Source: Cinnamomum chago (lineage: Eukaryota > Streptophyta > Magnoliopsida > Laurales > Lauraceae). From it: DNA of 64,000 nucleotides. Shown here piece by piece: positions 22,370-45,117 of this stretch. The stretch is from assembly GCA_038049695.1 (NCBI GenBank), contig CP142452.1, forward strand, positions 70,933,501-70,997,500, written 5' to 3'. The first letter of the stretch is position 1; each line of letters begins with the position of its first letter. The notes below the pieces were generated by a model. That model was not told the DNA's origin. It was given only the letters and a program-made list of their open reading frames with translations, and searched no databases. Both the position numbers and the translations under genes were made by a program.

Positions 22370-23310
22370 TGTTGTACAACTGGTCCGGTAACCGTGCTGA
22401 AGCTTTTGTCAAGCTGGTGCTGTCACCGAGTTGAGGCTTCTGCTAAGTTTTGTAACTACGACACTTTGCGCAGCTGGTTCTGTAATCGAGCTGTAGTCTC
22501 TTCCATGCCGGTGTTGTCACCAAGCTAAGACTTTTACCGAGTTCTGTAACTGCGGCATTTTGCGCAGCTGGTTCTATAACTGAGTTGTAGTCTCTTCCAC
22601 GCTGGTGCCGTCACAGAGCTGAGACTTTTGCCGAGTTCTGTAACTGCGGCATTTTGCGCAGCTAGTTCTGTAACCGAGCTGAAGCTTTTGTTGAGCTGGT
22701 GTCGTCACCAAGCTAAGACTTTTGCCGAGTTCTGTAACTACAGCATTTTGCGTAGCTGGTTTTGTAACCGAACTGTAGTCTCTTCCATCCCGGTGTCGTG
22801 TGTCATCACCGAGCTGAGACTTTTGCTGAGTTCTGTAACTGCGGCATTTTGCACAGCTGGTTCTGTAACCGAGCTGTAGTCTCTTCCATGCTGGTGCCGT
22901 CACCGAGCTGAGACTTTTGCCGAGTTCTGTAACTGTGGCATTTTACGCAGCTGGTTCTGTAACCGAGCTGTCGTCTCTTCTATGCTGTTGCCGTCACCGA
23001 ACTGAGATTTTTGCCGAGTTCTATAACTGTGACATTTTGCGTAGCTGGTTCTATAACCGAGCTAAAACTTTTGTCGAGCTAGTGCCGTCACCAAACTAAG
23101 ACTTTTGCCGAGTTCTGTAACTGCGGCATTTTACGCAGCTAGTTCTGTAACCGAGCTGTAGTCTCCTCCATGCTGGTGCCGTCACCGAGCTGAGACTTTT
23201 GTCGAGTTCTGTAACTGCAGCATTTTGCGCAGCTAGTTTCGTAACCGAGTTGTTGTCTCTTCCACGCTAGTGCCGTCACCGAGCTGAGACTTTTGCCTAG
23301 TTTTGTAATT
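22370..23310 (+). repeat. ~95 bp tandem array inside the LTR element
   Basis: About nine to ten units marked by GCGCAGCTGGTTCTGTAACC, ACCGAGCTGTAGTCTCTTCC and TGAGACTTTTGCCGAGTTC; starts of the GCAGCTGG mark lie about 93-100 bp apart (near 22466, 22562, 22657, 22750, 22850, 22944, 23039, 23132, 23225). Looser GTAACCG / CACCGAG repeats continue to about 21960 on the left and 23690 on the right. Tandem arrays in untranslated parts are common in Tat-type plant elements. Confidence 0.9.
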
Positions 23311-24513
23311 GCAGCAAGAATTGAAGTTACCATGAGAAAAGCTGTTAGGGTCATGGCTGGTGCTGTCACCGAGGCCATTGCCAGGGCTTTGATTTATGTT
23401 TAAAGAAGCTAGGCTGATGCTGGCATTGTCACCGAGGCTGCAGCCGGAGCTGTCGAGATTGAACATGTCCGAGCTGTGACTGGTGCTGTCACCGTGGCCA
23501 CTGTTGGAGCTGTTGATTGCAGAAGCTGAGTTGAGGTTGGTGCAGTTACTGAGCCCGCAGCTGGAGCTTCTACCGGTTTAGCATTTCTACTCGAGCCGTG
23601 GCTGATGTTATCGCCGAGGCCATTGCTGGAGCTGTCACGATTGGAACTGTCTGAGCTGTGGTTGGTGGTATCACCGAGCCAGGGCTTGAGGATAAAGACT
23701 TAGCATGGCGAGTTAAGGAACTATTTCCAAGAGTGCCTTTTCTTTTCTGAAGGGCTTATCCTGCTAGAGATCGAGGTTGTTCTGAGCTTAAGCTCGAGCC
23801 TCGCCTTCTTGGATTACCTGGCTCACCCTGGCGATTAATGCCTTCACCGTGACCATGGGGAACCGAGTTAGGCCCTTTCGAAGCTCATTGCCTAGCGGCA
23901 GAACTTATTTGAAGGATGTGAAGGCCACTCTGTTAGTGGCATTTGTTTTTTGGATGACTTTGCGCTCCTGGAACTTTTCCACGAAGGAGTTTAGGAGCTG
24001 CCACCAGCTTGTAAATGATCCTTCTGGGAACGCGCAGAACCACCTCAAGGGGAGGTCGTCCCGCTGGACAAAATGTCGGATTTGTGCCGCAGGGTCCGGG
24101 TCTTCGTCATGAAGGATGAAACCCGGGTGGACATTTGAGTACGTAGATCAACTCATCTTGTTCCTCGATAACAAGGTTTCGGGCCTAGGTATCCACGAGG
24201 AATGGATCTTCGTCATTACTGTTATTGCGGTCCACCTGGTGGAGGGAACGACGAGACCTAGTTGCTGCTGGAGCTTTGCTTTGCAGGGGAGTCTCCAACA
24301 GGGTAACACTTATGCTGGGGCGCTCCAGTGGATGAGAGTTTTGCTGGGGAGGTGTTGTCATCCCCTTTGCTGATGAACCTGTCTGAGTTACAGGTCCTTC
24401 TACACCTGTCGCACCAGACTTTCCCCCGGACTCCTTCGAAGGGGGATCGTTGGTGATCCTTCACCATTTTTTGAGGCATGACATCTTTGATCTTTCCCAC
24501 AGATGGCGCCAAT

Positions 24514-31739: not shown

Positions 31740-31993
31740 AAAGGATGAAAATGGTTTTTCAAGTTGCGATGTTGCAATACAAATTGCGATATCACAACAT
31801 AAATTGCGGTATCGCAACTTAATAACTTGTGGTATCGCAACATTCGTCGTGATACCGCAAATAAAAAAAAACACCTTTTGGCCAGCTCATGGTACGGACT
31901 ATACAGAAAACGTTTGGGTAAAATAGCTAACTTTGATGACATGAGCGAAGAATCAATGACTTTAGGTTACTGTATAGAAAAAATCCCTAAAAA
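31740..31993 (-). repeat. Right long inverted repeat with GATATC-type palindromes
   Basis: Inverted partner of 25551-25790. Contains AATTGCGATATCACAACA, AATTGCGGTATCGCAACT and TTGTGGTATCGCAACA spaced about 22 bp. Confidence 0.75.
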
Positions 31994-32009
31994 AAATTTA
32001 CACATGACA

Positions 32010-32243
32010 AAAATACCACTAAATTACCCCTCTCCCTGTCTCCCTGCTCCGGCAACCTCCGCCCACCCAGCCTCCTTCTCCTCAACCCCGCCGCCGACCC
32101 ATCTCCCTCTCCTTCCCTCTCTCTCAGTAGCCTACTCCCACTTCTTTCGCATCCACCTACATCCCCTTGGTGCTGCCGAAGGGGAGGGAGCGATAGAGAG
32201 AAAGGGAGGGAGAGGGAGAAGGAGAGACAAGAGGGGGAGAAAA
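32010..32243. other. Pyrimidine- then purine-rich left flank of the CACTA element
   Basis: CCCCTCTCCCTGTCTCCC and related text turns into AGGGAGGGAGAGGGAGAAGG just before the insertion. The right flank (38197-38690) is also strongly purine-rich, so the CACTA element probably landed in a single asymmetric block. Confidence 0.5.
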
Positions 32244-32355
32244 CACTACTAGAAAAATGAGTTTTGGCGCGTCAAAAACGCGGGCGGCCGCCAGGGGCGG
32301 TCGCAAAAGACATCATTAGCGACCGCCATAGGCGGCCGCAGGGCGGTCGCAAAAA
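32244..32355. repeat. CACTA left TIR and subterminal repeats
   Basis: After the terminal CACTA motif come GGCGGCCGCC, GGGCGGTCGC, TTAGCGACCGCC and AGGGCGGTCGC in both orientations, the likely binding sites of a trans-acting transposase. Confidence 0.9.
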
Positions 32356-32462
32356 GTTTTTTCTTCACTCCCTTCCCACTTCTGTTTTTCCTTCTCCCGC
32401 TCTGCTCCCGCGCTCAACCCTTTCCAGCGATTTTTTCCTCTCTCCCAGCGATATTTTCCCTC

Positions 32463-32484
32463 CCTCTCTCTCTCTCTCTCTCTC

Positions 32485-32521
<37 letters not shown>

Positions 32522-32533
32522 TTCTCTCTCTCG
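32463..32533. repeat. (CT)n microsatellite
   Basis: About 70 bp of CT with two TTT interruptions, in the left part of the CACTA element. Confidence 0.95.
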
Positions 32534-32599
32534 CTCACTCTCTCCCCCTCCCTCCCTCTCTCGCTCTGCCCTCGCTCCCGCGCGCCGGAACCGTTGCTG

Positions 32600-35540
32600 A
32601 CGAGGTGCTGTAACAGCTCCCCTTCTCCGAAATCCTCTCCATTGAGAAGATCTCTCTCGGCGGAAAGGTCAGAACTTTCTCCATGTGCGGATTCGTTTTC
32701 CTATTGATTTGGGTGTTGTTTTGGGTTTCTGTGGTTGTTCTTCATTTGAGTTGAGCCGATGAGAGTGTAATGGAGATTTGTCGGCCTCATTTGAGGTCTT
32801 CTTGTTATTATTTATGGTTTCTGTTATTGATTTGGTTTTGAAGTGTTTGGAGTGAAATTTTTGAGATTTCTGATTTCACATTTGAGGTTTCATCTGGAGT
32901 TTTATTCTAAAACCCATCCGTCCTCACGGACGGCTTTTTCTTCTCTTCCCCTTTCATTTCTCCACTACAGGTTTACTGCGAAACCCTAAAATCTCTGTGT
33001 CTCTCCCCCTTTCTTCTTCGTTTATCTTCTCATGATTTTGATTTTGATTTTTGATTTTGACTTTTCTTTTAGAGATTGTAGATCTTATAAGCAAGACAGT
33101 TTCATATTTTAACAGTGTGTGTATATATATAAATTGCAAGTTGCAGTTGCGGTTCTTACTTGGCTGGCAATCGACCTCAGAAATCGGAAAAAGGGCTCCT
33201 GAAACTCATCGCCAATTTCATCAGCCTTTCAGGTACTTGTACTAATATCATTGTTTGCCCTAAATCGACTATTCTTCCTCTCTCTTTTTTATTTTACCTG
33301 TTTTGGGCATGCTTATGTTATGAAGATTTGTATTTTTCTTTTTCTTTTTTTTTTACGTTTCTCAGATCTGTCTGGTTACAGATGGTGTTTTCTTTCTCTT
33401 TCTTCTTTTGTATAGGTTTTTTTGGGTTGCAGACCGACACGGATTCTGTTGTGTTGGGTGATGTTTTTTATTGTGTAGCTTTTGAAGTGATTTTTGTCCT
33501 TCATAGTTGCGGATTTGGATTCGTAAAACTCAAGGAAGAGCTGGATTTATTTATATATTTTGATGGAAGCTTGATATTTTACATATAGATAGATCTGGAG
33601 CTCTGTGCTTAAGCCGAGGAAGGAAGTAGTCAATAGGATTGCACTTACTGATGGTATTCTCATTTGTAGGTTTTTAAGACCATATAAATTATAAACTGTC
33701 TTGTTAATTATTCCTCAATTAGAGTTGAAGCATCTCGATTTTTGTAGGAAGTCTATGGTTTAGCAGAAGGAATGTTCAACTAGGACATATGCCTGTTACA
33801 CCAAAACTCCTGCAGTCGAATTTACCAAGTTATAAGAATAAAAATGATCAAATTTAAAGCTTTCATGCATAAACAAACACAGAGCAACATCTAGTGCTGA
33901 CATGCAAACACCATGTAAGAGATTTACATAAAAACAGAGGAAACCATTTTAACTTCATGACTTGAAAATTGCAATACATTAAAACTAACATTAGAAGACA
34001 GCTTCCACTGACATGAATCACATAGAATTGTAAGAGAAAGATGAAAAGAAAGTTGGGTTGTTCATATGAACCTCAATTGAGTCTATCAAGATGGGACAAC
34101 GTTATAATGTGGTGATGAGGAGATATAAAAGCAATGCAGGAGAGGAAGTGCTACTTCCAGTGTGAGAGGAGTTGGAATGAGTGAACGGAAAGAGATATAT
34201 AGAGTAAAGGTGAAGTTGGATGGGGGTAGTCCAAAGGGGTAGTCAGGACTCACACTTTTTTTTTTTGTTTTGCTGAAAGTCTGGACTCACCTGTTGGTAA
34301 GAAAGTTGGAATGCCATTTGTCTTTGGTCATATTCACATTCCTATGAATGAAAGCCACTGCTACAAAGGGAATAGTGTGTATTGGGCTCTCTCTGCACTA
34401 GTGCCACCTAAATGTTTCTTCTAGATTATACCAATCCAATCTTTGCTATCTTTTGGGAGGAGAATGCATCATGCCAGTGGGCCAGAGAAAGGACAGAATA
34501 TTGCCCAGCTTTTTAGGTGCCAAGGATAGTGCATTGAATTGATGGGTGAAGATCATTGGGTAATTAATCAGTAGGCCTTACTGCATGTACTCTAAGAAAA
34601 GCCAGGAATAGAAGAGGAGTTCATGGGTCCTGGGCCCAATGGCCATTATGTGATGTACCTAATATTTATGCTAAAGCAAGGAAATAGGAAGATGTGGTTA
34701 AGGTAATTAGGAGATTAATGGTTAATAGAGTCACCAATAAGATTCCAAAAAAAAAAATATGTTCTGTCTTTTCTTATAAGATGTTCCACACCATTCAGTG
34801 TTTCTTTGACTCTTACCTTTAATTGGTCGCAAAAAGACGCTAACAAATTTTATCCATAAAAAATTCGTTTTGGTCCTTTGCGCCTTGAAAACAACCTCAA
34901 ATATAAATTATCCGAAAGAATGCTTCTTCTTTACACTTCTATTACCTTTCTCACTATTTTAACATTTCTTTTAAAACAAATTATTCAAATATAAGCTAAA
35001 TCTCTCTTCACTATCATTTGCACCTTAAAGCAAGGCATAAAAAGATTTTCAAATAAGGAACACTCAGTAATCACAGAGATGTTATTGAAAAGGTAATGAT
35101 AGGATTAAATGTTGTTAACACAAGATACCAATATGAAATCTACAGCCATATACAAGTGTTCCTTGCTTCTTAATCATGTCATGGGTGGCCCATTTGGTGT
35201 ATATATGGGGACCCTATCCACATTTCATGAATCTTAATTCCACAGAAAACTAAATTCTATGTTTGTGAAACCTGCTTTTCGCTGAAATGATTTTCTTCCC
35301 ACAACCCTGAAAACAAGCCTAACTCTTGTAAGAGACAACGGAACTCTTGAACGCTTGTTCTAGAGTGATAAGAGTGTGAAGACCAGGAAAAGTAAAAAAA
35401 AATGTAAGAAAGAAAGAAAGAACCCCTCTTTTTTAGTGCTATTGTCAATATGTTTTTCTTAATTTTTTTTTCCTTTTAAAAGCAAATGCAGTTTATTTTC
35501 ATATCATGTTACTATGTGACTCCTGGTTTGCAATTATAGG
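32600..35540 (+). other. CACTA interior without recognised coding sequence
   Basis: Text around 32640-32720 looks like a plant 5' leader followed by a T-rich intron, and 33143-33233 ends in CTTTCAG|GTACTT, a donor-like site after about 90 bp of balanced sequence that could be a captured exon. No known protein matched. 33600-35540 is AT-rich with no motif recognised. Confidence 0.35.
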
Positions 35541-35549
35541 GAAGCCTTG

Positions 35550-36464
35550 ACATTTGATTTTCTGGGTCAGACTCTTTGTGGGAAAGCATCACTTACAATG
35601 GGAATTTGTAGAATTTGACTTGAATTTCAAGTTGCTACAGAAGAAGGAGTTTAGTATCCCAGACCATTTGATGATTCACGACTGGGCTTTCACTGACTCC
35701 CACTACATTATCTTTGGCAACCGGATCAAGCTTGATGTCCCTGGTAATATAATCTCTCAACAATAAATACTTGTTCTTCTTCTTCTTGTTGTTGTTGAAG
35801 AAGTTAATGATATTTAAGAGATTAGAGGCTAAAGAAGCGCAAAGACAAAAAAGATAAAGCTGATGATGTGAATGCCATTTTTGTGTGTTGTGTGTGGTAT
35901 GGATGGGAAATGCAGGATCGATGCTAGCTGTGTCTGGGCTCTCCCCCATGATCTCGGCTTTATCGGTGAACCCAAGCAGGCCCACGTCCCCAATTTACTT
36001 GTTACCACGCTTCTCAGAAGAAGGCAGCAGCCATCTTGATAAGTGGAGAGTGCCCATCGAAGTACCATCACAGCTTTGGCTATCACATGTGGCAAATTCA
36101 TTCGAGCAAAAGGACGACAAGGGCAATCTGGAAATTCAAATATATGCTGCTGCTTGCTCCTACCAATGGTTCAATTTGCAGAAAATGTTTGGTAATTCTT
36201 GCTTCTTCTTTCTTTCTTTTTTTCTCTTTACATGTGGCGACACATAAGATTATTGGGACTTTTTGGTAGGCCCTATGCTAGTAGACAAGTCGAGGCTTGA
36301 TCGATACTGCATTGGTTCATTGATCTCAATAATCCAATCAATGGAACTTGGGAAAGAGAAACATCTTCGGTTTTGCAGGATATGATTGGAAGACTGGGAA
36401 ACTCGATCCTTCCTTCATGAACGCAAGAGAGGGTGAAGAGTCCACACTACCCCACCTAGTTCAG
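35550..36464 (+). pseudogene. CCD7: Captured fragment of carotenoid cleavage dioxygenase 7
   Basis: Three consecutive exons: about 35550(or 35573)-35743, 35916-36191 and 36379-36464, with GT-AG introns and consistent phases (1, 1, then 0). The first reads FVEFDLNFKLLQKKEF and IPDHLMIHDWAFTDSHYI, whose HDW histidine corresponds to an iron ligand of carotenoid oxygenases. The second holds GLSPMISALSVNPSRPTSP and SQLWLSHVANSFE, the third GYDWKTGKLDPSFMNAREG and ends LPHLVQ. These match CCD7 (MAX3/D17/HTD1), the plastid enzyme that cleaves 9-cis-beta-carotene in strigolactone synthesis. Only a central part is present; N- and C-terminal exons are missing, so it cannot make the enzyme. No stop codon lies within the three exons, suggesting recent capture or constraint. 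It sits in the CACTA element, directly before SWEET exons. Confidence 0.9.
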
Positions 36465-36579
36465 GTATATATATTTCTCTCTACCTGGGCCTTGCATTTG
36501 AAATTTGGTTTAAATCAATCATACATTGCATATACATGAGATTGGATGGATGGATTGAATGGGGTCTCTGTTTTTGCAG

Positions 36580-37475
36580 GAAATGTCATCTCTTTCGGCT
36601 TGTTTCTCTCTCCAGTGTAAGTCTTTTAATATTTCCAGTAATTTATATTATTTGCTAAGAGCTTGTTTGTGTAACTGGTGTAATAAGTGTTACTTTGTTC
36701 CAACAGAAAATAAGACAACTTTTCTTAGAAAATGAAGATAATAAGACTCAGAGAAATCATGAGTTGAAAGAGTGGAACAAAGACAGGTAACCTATTGCTC
36801 AAAATGAATGCCCTCATTATACATGGGATGTCTCATAACAACTACAAGATTGATCACATGATGGATAACATGATTTATAAATATGATTGAAATTGTGTTA
36901 ATCATGTTATTCATAACGTGCTCAATCTTTAGGTGGCCCAACTCTTATTCTTGAGCGGTTCAAATTCTCAATAGGTTGGATCTCACTGTGGGCTGATGCA
37001 AATAGCCTTTTATATTGTGATTGTGGGTCCAAAAGGCCTCTACCCATGGAATAGCACCGGGGAGTCTTGTAGAAGGAGGTGGATCCTTTTCCAAAAATTT
37101 CCAAATCGAATGGTTTTATCAAAATGGTGTATTCCCAACGGTTAATGGGGATAATGATTGCTGTGATTTTAGAACATTTTTAATTTTTAACTTGATTCTA
37201 CCAAATCCATGAAATGAATTCAATGAGAAAGGTAACATTTTTACTGTCCTCTTTGCAGGCCAACCTTTTATAAGATATGGAAGAAACGAGACGTGGAAGA
37301 TTTCTCTCCAATCCCATACCTTGCAACCTTACTCAACTGCATGCTATGGGTGTTCTATGGTCTCCCTTTTGTGACTCCTAACAGTTTCGTAGTTGTCACT
37401 ATCAACGGTGCTGAGCTTGTGCTGGAGGGCGTCTACCTCTCCATGTACTACGCCTTCTCAACAAGAAAACAGAGA
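36580..37475 (+). pseudogene. SWEET: Captured fragment of a SWEET (MtN3) sugar transporter, exons 2-3
   Basis: Two exons with GT-AG borders: 36580-36616, exactly 37 bp, and 37259-37475, exactly 217 bp, the sizes of the second and third coding exons of many plant SWEET genes. The first encodes GNVISFGLFLSPV (end of the first membrane helix). The second gives [38 protein letters not shown] and [20 protein letters not shown], covering membrane helices 2 and 3 of the first MtN3 repeat. The donor AGAGA|GTATGT is intact but no later exon follows; the text runs into A/T-rich sequence and CACTA subterminal repeats. The start exon is also absent. SWEETs are bidirectional sugar uniporters; this piece has three helices at most. 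No stop inside the exons. Confidence 0.93.
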
Positions 37476-37764
37476 GTATGTTATCTTGCAGAAGAGAGTG
37501 TTATAATGGTAGAAAATCTACAACGGCACCCTGCACAGATTTTTTTTTTTTTTCTGTAATTGCAATGGATGATATAATTTATTGAAACTTTTGTAATGTT
37601 TTGAATGTAATTAATATAAGACTTTTTTTTGTTATTTGTAATTTTAATTGATGGTAGTAGTTGTATATTACTCATGGTAGTAGTTGTATATAATACATTC
37701 AGGTATAGGTATAAAAAGCAGGAAAAAAATTAAGAAAAAAAAATTTATTAAAAAAAAAAAATCA

Positions 37765-38193
37765 ATTGCTTTAGCGGCCGCTAATACGTGAAAAAAAATA
37801 AAAAAAATAAAAAAATAAAAAAATTGAGTATTAGCGGCCGCCGTTTGGAGTATTAGCGACCGCCATGGCGGTCGCTAATACTTGAAAATTTTAAAAAAAA
37901 TAAAAAAAATAAAAAAATTTGTGCATTAGCGACCGCCGTTTGTAGTATTAGCGACCGCCATAGCAGCCGCTAATACTTTCGAAAATTTTTTTTAAAATTT
38001 TTTAGCGACCGCCACCTTGCCATTGCTAAAAGTATTAGCGACCGCCAGTGGCGGTCGCTAATACTTTTAGCGACGAAGTATCCGCGGCGGCTACTTGGCG
38101 GTCGCTGGGCGGTCGCTAAAGAGTATTAGCGACCGCCAGACCACTTTTAGCGACGGCTCTTGGCGGCCGCTAAAAGTGACTTTTCTAGTAGTG
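37765..38193. repeat. CACTA right subterminal repeats and TIR
   Basis: At least a dozen copies of TTAGCGACCGCC / GGCGGTCGCTAATA separated by A/T-rich spacers, ending in AAAAGTGACTTTTCTAGTAGTG. Some form perfect short palindromes, e.g. GCGACCGCCATGGCGGTCGC at 37857-37876. Confidence 0.92.
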
Positions 38194-38196
38194 AAA

Positions 38197-38700
38197 GGAG
38201 ACTGGGCAGGCGGAGAGAGGGCGGAGAGCGGGCAGGGAGAGGGGGGGAAAGGGAGAAAGAGGGAGAGGGCCGGCAGGGGCTACGACGACGGGCGAGAGAA
38301 AGAGGGAGACTTGGTTGGCGGAGGGCGGGGAGAGGGATAGGGTGGAGTGCGAGTGGGGAGAGGGAGAGGGTGGGCGGGCGGGTGGGGGCTACAGCGGTGG
38401 GCGGCGAGCAAGAGGTAGAGAGCGGGAGAGGGAGAGGGAGAAGCAGAGGTCGAAGGGATTTTGGGTAGGGGCCAGTGGCTGGTGAGAGGGAGAGAGGAAG
38501 AGAGAGGAAAAGAGAAAGGGGAAGGGGGGAGAGAGGGACGGGGGCTGCCGGCGGTAGGTGAGAGAGATAAAGAGAGGGAGAGGAATTTGCGCCGGGGGGG
38601 GGGGGGGGGGGGGGGGTGTGGTTTGGGCGGAGGTGGCCTGAACAGAGAACAGGAAATGAGAGAGGGAGAGGAAAAGAGAGAATAGGAGGTATTTTAGATA
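38197..38700 (+). repeat. Purine-rich block with a 23 nt poly-G run
   Basis: Nearly all G and A on the plus strand (GGGAGAGGG-type text), with poly-G at 38594-38616. Potential G-quadruplex or triplex former. Open frames on both strands across it are compositional and not genes. Confidence 0.85.
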
Positions 38701-42430: not shown

Positions 42431-45117
42431 CTAACACACCTTACAACTCCTTCTACAGTAGCCAGGTATCTCTGTGGATCCCACCATATACTCTGGGTTC
42501 TTCGTGCATTCTCCCAGGGCTGCCCACCTCTCACAGCTCGCATTTTGATCCACACATTTTCCATCAGCACCCCCCAGGATCTTATCGAAAGAGTCAACAT
42601 GTATCCATTTTGTTGCAGACCATTTCTCACCTTCAATCACAGGGCATCCTGCATGTAGACTCATTGGATCTGGAACCGCATTGGGGAGGAGGCTGAAGAA
42701 AAGAAGTGCATCTCCACGCCTTGGTTTTACTAAGCATTTGTTGTTAGAAAAAGGAAAAAAATAAGCATGATGTAACTCAGTAAAGGTTTTTCATAGAGAG
42801 AAGACTTTGGAGCAATTTATATGTAAATAGTTTTACCTGCAATTCCTTTCTTGGCACAATCTGATAAATCATTGTCCATAACAGGGGCTCTTCTGTGCGG
42901 AGGCTCCTATAAACAATAAGCCGTATCACGTTAAAAAGAATGGAAATATATACTTTCCCCAAGCAGGAGGCGACTCTTATTTTGGGTGAAACTGCCTTTC
43001 TGTGAAACAAGCCATTCATATGGGGTGGTAACAAAATTTCAGTATTGAAGGGCATATTGACCAAACTCAAAACAGGCATGTGTAACAGACGACACCGCAG
43101 CCCATATCATGTGTATGGACTCATTTTTCAAATCATAATAGCTTGCTGGCCAGGCAAGCCCCAGGCCTAAAAGTTACCTAAACAAAAGCCTTGCAAATGA
43201 ATTTACTTCATTATGGACTGCTGCAAGACTCTGCTATTAGGCCATTAATCACAAAGTAAACACCTCCACTTGAGGAAGATTGTTCACAGCATGATCCTTC
43301 CATAGTGGGACTGCACACAAAATGCATCTCTCAAAAGTTTCAGTATAACTGGGTCAATCAAAAACTTGCTGCTTATTTTGATCAAGCATCATATGTAGAT
43401 AGGTTAAGCAAAAAATTGTTGCCAATTTCAACAATATATAATGCCATGTAGACAATTTCTCCATGACCTCACAGACAATTTTCTTTTGGTTCCTAGAACT
43501 GAGATAACTTTAGTTTAAAACACAGACAGGCTGCAGTTTGCTGACATTGAAAGATTTGACAGCCCAATTGCAAACACCATCTGTCCCACAGAGACAGCCC
43601 AGAAACACCATGACAGATTATTATAAATTTTTCACAAAGGAACTTCAACTAGTTCATACAGATGGTAAAGGTAAATAGTACAACTAACCTCTGCTGATGG
43701 AAATACAGTTTCACCACCTTTCACCACATCAGTGAGATACATAAGTACGGTGGCAATGCGGTGCCCACCCCTAGCAATATTGACCTTGTCAGAGAAGTAA
43801 TCATAGTGAGGATCATACTTTTCCCCATGCTCATATCTTAGAATTTGTATATCCTCACCATTTTCTGAAAGAAAAGGAACTCCAAATCAGCTTGCTGGCA
43901 AAAATCTCAAGCAGAAACAATAAGATGCTTCTTTCTAATTTAACCAAAAAAAAAAAAAAAGGGAAAAAAGAGAGGTTTCTTAGCCACATGTACATGCACA
44001 AACAAACCACTACAAACTACCACAGCAGGTCTATACATATAATTAGGAGTGTGTCCTTTTGGAAACATTTTTTATATTTAGATTCAATGACTCGAAAATT
44101 AAATAAGAACATTAAAAGAAACAAAAGTATAGGCATAAAATCAGTAAATGCAATACCTTTTGGTAGAAATGTCCATGCTGCAATTTTGTCCTCTATGCCA
44201 GCAACAATAGGGTCCTGCACAGGATAAGTTTGTGACATAATATTGGAGTCATGCAACCTTTGAAAGCAAACAGTAGCTACTGATAAAACTTTGGATGAAA
44301 AAACTTAAAATAGATTAAAGGTTAAATAATCTGTGAAGAAAGCCACCAGGCTATACAGATAATGCTAACATAGATAAATGGGATAAGCTTACAATGACAA
44401 GGATGATTATACAGAACAAACACAAAATCCAATGGCACATTCTCACATAAACACAAAATCCAATGGCACATTCTCACATAACTTCTTTCGAAAAATAAGG
44501 AAAATAATAAAATGAACAAGGAAAATGGCATTTAATCTGTGATAATTTCAAATTCCGTATTGTGATGAAAGCAAAAGGGTGGCTAGAAGCATGAAAAGAC
44601 AACAACCAAAAATCATCTGGGCAATATCCAGATAAGTAACGTCATTGCAGTATTATTTAGCAGTATTATTTAAAAGAGAGAGCTTCAACTTACAGTTACA
44701 GGAGAAAGGACCTTACTCATTTCATGCTCCAAGATTCTATATACATGTATTAACAACCAGCAATAACAGGAGAAAGGACCTCACTCATTTCATGCTCCAA
44801 GATTCTATATACATGTATTAACAACCAGCAATAACAGGAGAAAGGACCTCACTCATTTCATGCTCCAAGATTCTATATACATGTATTAACAACCAGCAAT
44901 AATAGTATATCAGATTTCAGTTTTAGCTCAAAGATGGATTTCCTTTTACCCCATAATATATGGTGTGAAGTCACTCACACCCTCCATAGTGTAAAGACAT
45001 GAGGTTACCCAGGCAAGAAAAGAATGAAGTTTGATAATGAGGCTCCTGCTGCATCAGTTCTGGTATCATGAAGAGCAGTTGAGCCCTCTCATCTCTGATC
45101 CAAACATGCTCCCCCCC

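Follow-up and report, generated by a model that had tools for sequence, protein, structure and literature searches.

The segment at 32244-38193 of the analyzed window is a non-autonomous Pack-CACTA transposon that has inserted, with pieces of two host genes, at no fewer than nine sites of the Cinnamomum chago genome. The best explanation of the data as a whole, which we hold with high confidence, is a Pack-CACTA element with at least nine insertions that carries exons 3-5 of a CCD7 gene and exons 2-3 of a SWEET6b-like gene, both with their introns; its inferred origin, which we hold less firmly, is described below. The window, that is, the whole 64-kb stretch of DNA analyzed, corresponds to C2:70933501-70997500 in the assembly of this species' own genome (1.06 Gb, 14 contigs), and the same assembly was used for the genome searches. 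The features of the element are listed in Table 1.

Table 1. Features of the Pack-CACTA element and its flanks (window coordinates)
Feature	Position	Strand	Evidence or remark
Target-site duplication AAA, left	32241-32243		Sequence flanking the element
Left terminal inverted repeat CACTACTAGAAAAA	32244-32257	+	13/14 match to the right end
Left subterminal repeats, GCGRCCGCC type	32283-32350		6 of the window's 18 motifs
CACTA family 5' region	32354-33605	+	Own-genome DNA search
Segment common to other loci	33818-35196	+	97-98% identity, entire or partial, at five other loci
Fragment X	35228-35602	+	92% identity to C5:85.399 Mb; terminates in an exon-like stretch
4-nt insert AATT, between GGG and CCD7 DNA	35603-35606		Comparison with L035 and the C7 gene
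CCD7 segment, from the last part of intron 2 into intron 5	35607-36569	+	DNA comparison with the C7 gene
CCD7 exon A (gene exon 3)	35612-35743	+	AG/GT borders, open frame
CCD7 exon B (gene exon 4)	35916-36191	+	AG/GT borders, open frame
CCD7 exon C (gene exon 5)	36379-36464	+	AG/GT borders, open frame
CCD7/SWEET junction	36565-36569		5-bp TCTCT present in both source genes
SWEET segment, beginning ahead of exon 2 (inferred intron 1) and reaching the start of intron 3	36570-37519	+	Comparison with the C5 gene
SWEET exon 2	36580-36616	+	AG/GT borders, open frame
SWEET exon 3	37259-37475	+	AG/GT borders, open frame; Pfam
CACTA family 3' region	37520-38193	+	12 of 18 subterminal motifs, at 37834-38170
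Right terminal inverted repeat	38180-38193	-	Inverted partner of CACTACTAGAAAAA, 13/14
Target-site duplication AAA, right	38194-38196		Sequence flanking the element

The original prediction of a CACTA element at these positions was borne out by its nearly perfect terminal repeats, the flanking AAA duplication, and the subterminal motifs: all 18 matches to GCG[AG]CCGCC/GGCGG[CT]CGC in the window are located at the two ends of the element (6 left and 12 right). No other CACTA...TAGTG pair of such quality was found in the 64-kb window, and 100 first-order Markov shuffles yielded 14 comparable end pairs in total, none of which had a 3-bp duplication. The region 37770-38193 showed a strong fold as single-stranded DNA (z = -13.8). 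The element is surrounded by long GA/CT-rich low-complexity DNA (31985-32243 and 38194-38700), which includes 23 consecutive G at 38594.

Pfam detected no transposase in any of the 91 stop-free stretches of at least 35 residues at 32560-37700 (91/91 scored), a scan bounded by the terminal 316 and 493 bp of the element; outside the two cargo families, the one match was to FN-plug, weak (E = 0.011), under the cut-off, and taken as chance. On C9, 5 kb from the interior of a family member contained no open frame longer than 102 residues from stop to stop. Of 1,658 genomic candidates for CACTA transposase frames, 150 were scored, and such frames proved abundant, which makes a supply of transposase in trans plausible, although none of them was linked to this family.

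The three CCD7 and two SWEET exons that had been predicted to lie in the same direction inside the element were all confirmed on the plus strand with AG/GT borders and open frames, the two exon groups being 115 bp apart. The spliced CCD7 translation matched Pfam RPE65 (5.8e-14). Its best relative found was the CCD7 of Cinnamomum micranthum, with identity at 161 of 165 residues if the extra residues of that gene model are disregarded; for Magnolia, the identity was 80%; PDB gave no match for the CCD7 piece. The extra residues in the C. micranthum model (P0121) are identical to the terminal part of the intron that precedes exon C in the element and probably reflect a mis-set splice site. The spliced SWEET translation matched Pfam MtN3_slv (1.3e-22) and agreed at 77 of 85 residues with its best relative, a SWEET-domain protein of Persea americana; this cargo is exons 2-3 of a SWEET6b-like gene.

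A search of the host genome for the full genes, which had been proposed as a check, located both of them. The complete CCD7 gene is on C7, where stop-free matches span residues 1-624 of the 624-residue Cinnamomum protein, and the CCD7 segment differs from it (C7:63255246-63256214) at 15 of 963 sites. The SWEET gene on C5 is apparently complete, judging from matches that span residues 28-243 of the 243-residue Persea protein, the first exons being too short for a protein search; it differs from 36570-37521 of the element at 25 of 940 compared sites. This gene has four private amino-acid changes, and the true donor may therefore be a lost relative. Introns were retained in both cargoes, which indicates capture at the DNA level, and a retro-copy of an mRNA was rejected on this ground. 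CCD7 fragments were also observed at L036 (C6:71.69-71.70 Mb) and L037 (C2:78.30 Mb), the latter without most of exon C. SWEET intron 2 contains an imperfect 30-nt hairpin at 36846-36929, and the hairpin-forming stretch 36841-36949 has many matches of 71-89% identity elsewhere in the genome, so it is perhaps a small dispersed repeat that was already in the SWEET gene.

Further copies with the same cargo, whose search had also been suggested, were readily recovered. A DNA query covering 35540-37530 gave eight whole-length matches at 99-100% identity (the window included) and a ninth on C4 that is split by an insertion; 40 of the 45 candidates were scored, and the count is thus a lower bound. 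At least nine full copies (the window copy and L021-L028) carry both CCD7 and SWEET, and all of them terminate at the corresponding bases. The target-site duplications match in eight of the nine (AAA, ATT, AGA, CTG, ATG, TAT, ACG, and TCT) and are mismatched in L027 (GCG vs TAG). No cross-match was found among the 500-bp flanks of the nine copies, and their mean pairwise divergence is 0.34% (maximum, 0.62%; 5,830 ungapped columns). The terminal repeats match at 13 of 14 bases in four full copies and at 12 of 14 in five (L022 and L024-L027), and three bases are missing from CCD7 exon A in L024-L027. In L028 (C4:52.63 Mb), a 484-bp insertion splits SWEET exon 3; it has an 8-bp duplication on its flanks, and its ends look hAT-like. 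A short copy on C10 (L029, 8.62 Mb), in which 36468 is joined to 38123 over a 4-bp overlap, contains CCD7 without SWEET and has its own 3-bp duplication, GTA. Since it shares the 3-nt deletion in exon A and the end variant with L024-L027, this copy was most likely derived from the full element; we rejected it as a CCD7-only progenitor and regard it as a deletion derivative.

The interior left of the two cargoes consists of several further pieces. The first 750 bp of the CACTA family 5' region were found in at least 25 further loci and the remainder in a smaller set (40 of 188 candidates scored). At three of the five loci that match 33818-35196, the family 5' region lies at a distance of 0.6 to 3.3 kb; the segment may be a further cargo or belong to the interior of the family itself. 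The exon-like stretch at the end of fragment X has AG and GT borders at its source on C5, where it is adjoined by an ORF that resembles an inositol transporter by eye. In the rest of the window, Rfam and tRNA searches of the 64 kb gave no match, and among ten ORFs compared with Pfam, the cut-off was passed only by a prolyl 4-hydroxylase-like exon (identified by eye; its Pfam matches are 2OG-Fe(II) oxygenase and ShK) on the minus strand at 42434-42790, about 4 kb from the element. A tandem array of about ten copies of a 94-bp unit occupies 22380-23316.

The history of the element can in part be read from its junctions and from two relatives. At the left junction, fragment X runs to GGG, followed by the inserted AATT and then CCD7, and the junctions are the same in all nine full copies, barring T-run length changes beyond the third (SWEET/TE) junction. 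The part of the element left of CCD7, up to and including fragment X, tracks a locus on C8 (L035), from which it differs at 22 of 3,299 sites. This locus has no CCD7 and contains 28 bp more of fragment X than the element does at the switch point; the DNA that comes after is repeated, with copies on C3, C5 (two), and C6. In the 27 kb downstream, no right end of the element's type was found, only one of another type. On the other side, a locus on C10 (L031) shares the SWEET/right-end junction with the element and gave no CCD7 match; ahead of exon 2, its SWEET sequence is 163 bp longer than that of the element, and about 12 kb upstream of it contained no left end of the element's type, only one of another type. 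L031 was rejected as the SWEET source gene, as it terminates in a CACTA right end. SWEET also occurs a third time, on C12 (L032), as a longer copy, with a diverged right end of the element's type (71%) about 1.8 kb further on. Over 951 sites of the SWEET segment, the window copy has 20 differences from L032 and 22 from L031; such counts do not by themselves point to L031, and it is the common junction, together with the same apparently derived base at SWEET codon 57, that ties L031 to the element. Because L035 and L031 both extend past the element's junctions, neither can have arisen from the full element by deletion; nor is either half a complete element, no right end (L035) or left end (L031) of the element's type having been found in the stretches given above.

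From these relationships we consider it fairly likely that the element originated in two steps, acquisition of SWEET and then fusion across CCD7 DNA. In the first step, a CACTA element would have acquired the SWEET piece beside its own right end. In the second, a different member of the family would have contributed its left part, with fragment X as the last piece, and this would have been linked to the SWEET-bearing right part across CCD7 DNA by end joining with short homology. A CACTA transposase acting in trans would move the outer ends as a pair, and the cargo itself would have no coding function. The existence of CCD7-less relatives of both sides fits a published model in which neighboring Pack-TYPE insertions are mobilized as one with the intervening DNA (PMC8903248). 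In the 19 kb around the CCD7 gene on C7, no other sequence of the element was seen; this counts against the model of neighboring insertions, which might have left some there, and speaks for serial capture within a single element, in which gap repair with template switching filled an interior break by copying, with SWEET taken up earlier, CCD7 afterwards, and no fusion. The lack of a right end of the element's type at L035 and of a left end at L031 in the stretches examined, and the repeated DNA after fragment X at L035, also count against the model of neighboring insertions. We regard the latter as the less likely course of events, albeit one to be taken seriously: the TCTCT overlap and the small insert fit it as well as they fit end joining, but the CCD7-less left side (L035) and the side with SWEET and the right end (L031) are separate loci that run past the junctions.

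Divergence from the source genes bears on the order of capture. In the nine full copies, CCD7 differs from the C7 gene at 2-3 of 491-494 exon sites and at 10-13 of 469 intron sites. Fisher's test was applied to two copies, the window copy (3 exon and 12 intron differences, p = 0.018) and L022 (2 and 13, p = 0.003). No amino-acid replacement was found in six of the nine copies (L022-L027) and one each in the window copy, L021, and L028; F132L, considered as a sign of decay of the whole family, was rejected as such, being private to the window copy and L021. The SWEET piece differs from the C5 gene at 9-10 of 254 exon sites and 14-17 of 674-686 intron sites, and in the window copy (9/254 and 16/686, respectively), Fisher's test gave p = 0.36. 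In the window copy, there were no silent and eight replaced codons relative to the C5 gene, four private to that gene and four to the element. The simplest reading of these sequence comparisons is that SWEET has been free of constraint in transposons for the longer time and that CCD7 was a late addition; a constraint acting on CCD7 within the element could conceivably account for the pattern as well.

That the cargo works for the host, through a spliced CCD7-SWEET product or through small RNAs from CCD7-bearing copies that lower CCD7 activity, we judge to be improbable. Canonical splice sites are present at all five exons in 9/9 full copies, no stop was found in their aligned exons, and the CCD7 exons have changed less than the introns, all of which agree with a function; late capture from a diverged allele also explains the low exon change. 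The possible chimeric transcript of the original prediction stands in part. When all five exons are joined, SWEET is out of frame and an early stop follows, and a fusion protein from all exons was thus rejected for its frame shift; among 21 exon combinations tested, SWEET is in frame in six, each without CCD7 exon C, so that a chimeric transcript skipping this exon may be formed. Other features argue against a function for the host: each protein is present as a fragment only, the SWEET exon of L028 is broken by its insertion, exon A of L024-L027 has lost three bases, and SWEET L57V and G65E occur in every full copy at columns where L and G are invariant in 70/70 other sequences (among the matches listed, 77 were aligned, two Persea proteins were set aside, and five were dropped for being short, without a starting M, or without proline at position 14). 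Within the element, no exact 14-nt inverted match of the cargo at 35612-37475 was found. That full CCD7 and SWEET genes lie at this locus, or that a misassembly brought together CACTA ends from two elements, can be dismissed: the presence of exons with intact splice sites is the one point in its favor, and the protein matches in the window are limited to residues 297-479 of the Cinnamomum CCD7 and to residue 28 through 100 or 109 of the Persea SWEETs, while the source genes are elsewhere (C7 and C5) and the same two ends recur in nine full copies with unrelated flanks, eight of them with duplications.

Pack-CACTA elements with multi-gene capture are a known kind, published for soybean and maize, and the original view of two-gene capture by a single element as something unusual found no support. 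The soybean Tgm-Express1 is described as a 5.7-kb CACTA element with five gene fragments (PMC1947982), and coding DNA of more than one locus is reported to be frequent in maize Pack-TYPE elements, most of all in Pack-CACTAs (PMC8903248). Tgm-Express1 resembles the chago element in being about the same size and in carrying several unrelated host gene fragments with exons and introns; it differs in its location in an intron of a flower-color gene, in the splicing of its fragments into transcripts, and in the number of fragments (PMC1947982). The chago element, by comparison, has two identified genes plus fragment X, nine copies, and visible source genes. The Pack-CACTAs of Arabidopsis, rice, and maize are likewise non-autonomous, carry coding DNA from at least one locus, and have a proposed origin by fusion of neighboring insertions (PMC8903248), whereas for the chago element, separate relatives extending beyond the junctions are available for both sides, and the junctions themselves can be read base by base. 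CACTA transduplications in grapevine also captured host sequences, but these elements are 10-25 kb long and carry other sequences (PMC2528002). Further accounts of this kind concern Chenopodium (PMC8978399) and include a 2026 review (PMC13317346). Among the titles and abstract openings of the papers listed for CACTA and gene capture with CCD7 or SWEET, or in Lauraceae and Cinnamomum, there was no account of this element.

The point of interest is therefore the preserved assembly history. The mechanism of gene capture by CACTA elements is still argued from few cases; here, nine near-identical copies of the finished element, its source genes, relatives of both sides, and a shortened derivative occur in one genome, so that fusion and template switching can be compared at the level of single bases. 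CCD7 being a branching-hormone gene, the cargo also lends itself to a clean test for feedback on such a gene by small RNAs from its copies in transposons. It is a long shot that the ten CCD7-bearing copies found (nine full and one short) alter CCD7 activity through small RNAs or a chimeric transcript that skips exon C and thereby tune strigolactone-dependent branching; if this were true, a recently spread transposon would tune strigolactone-dependent branching in a tree.
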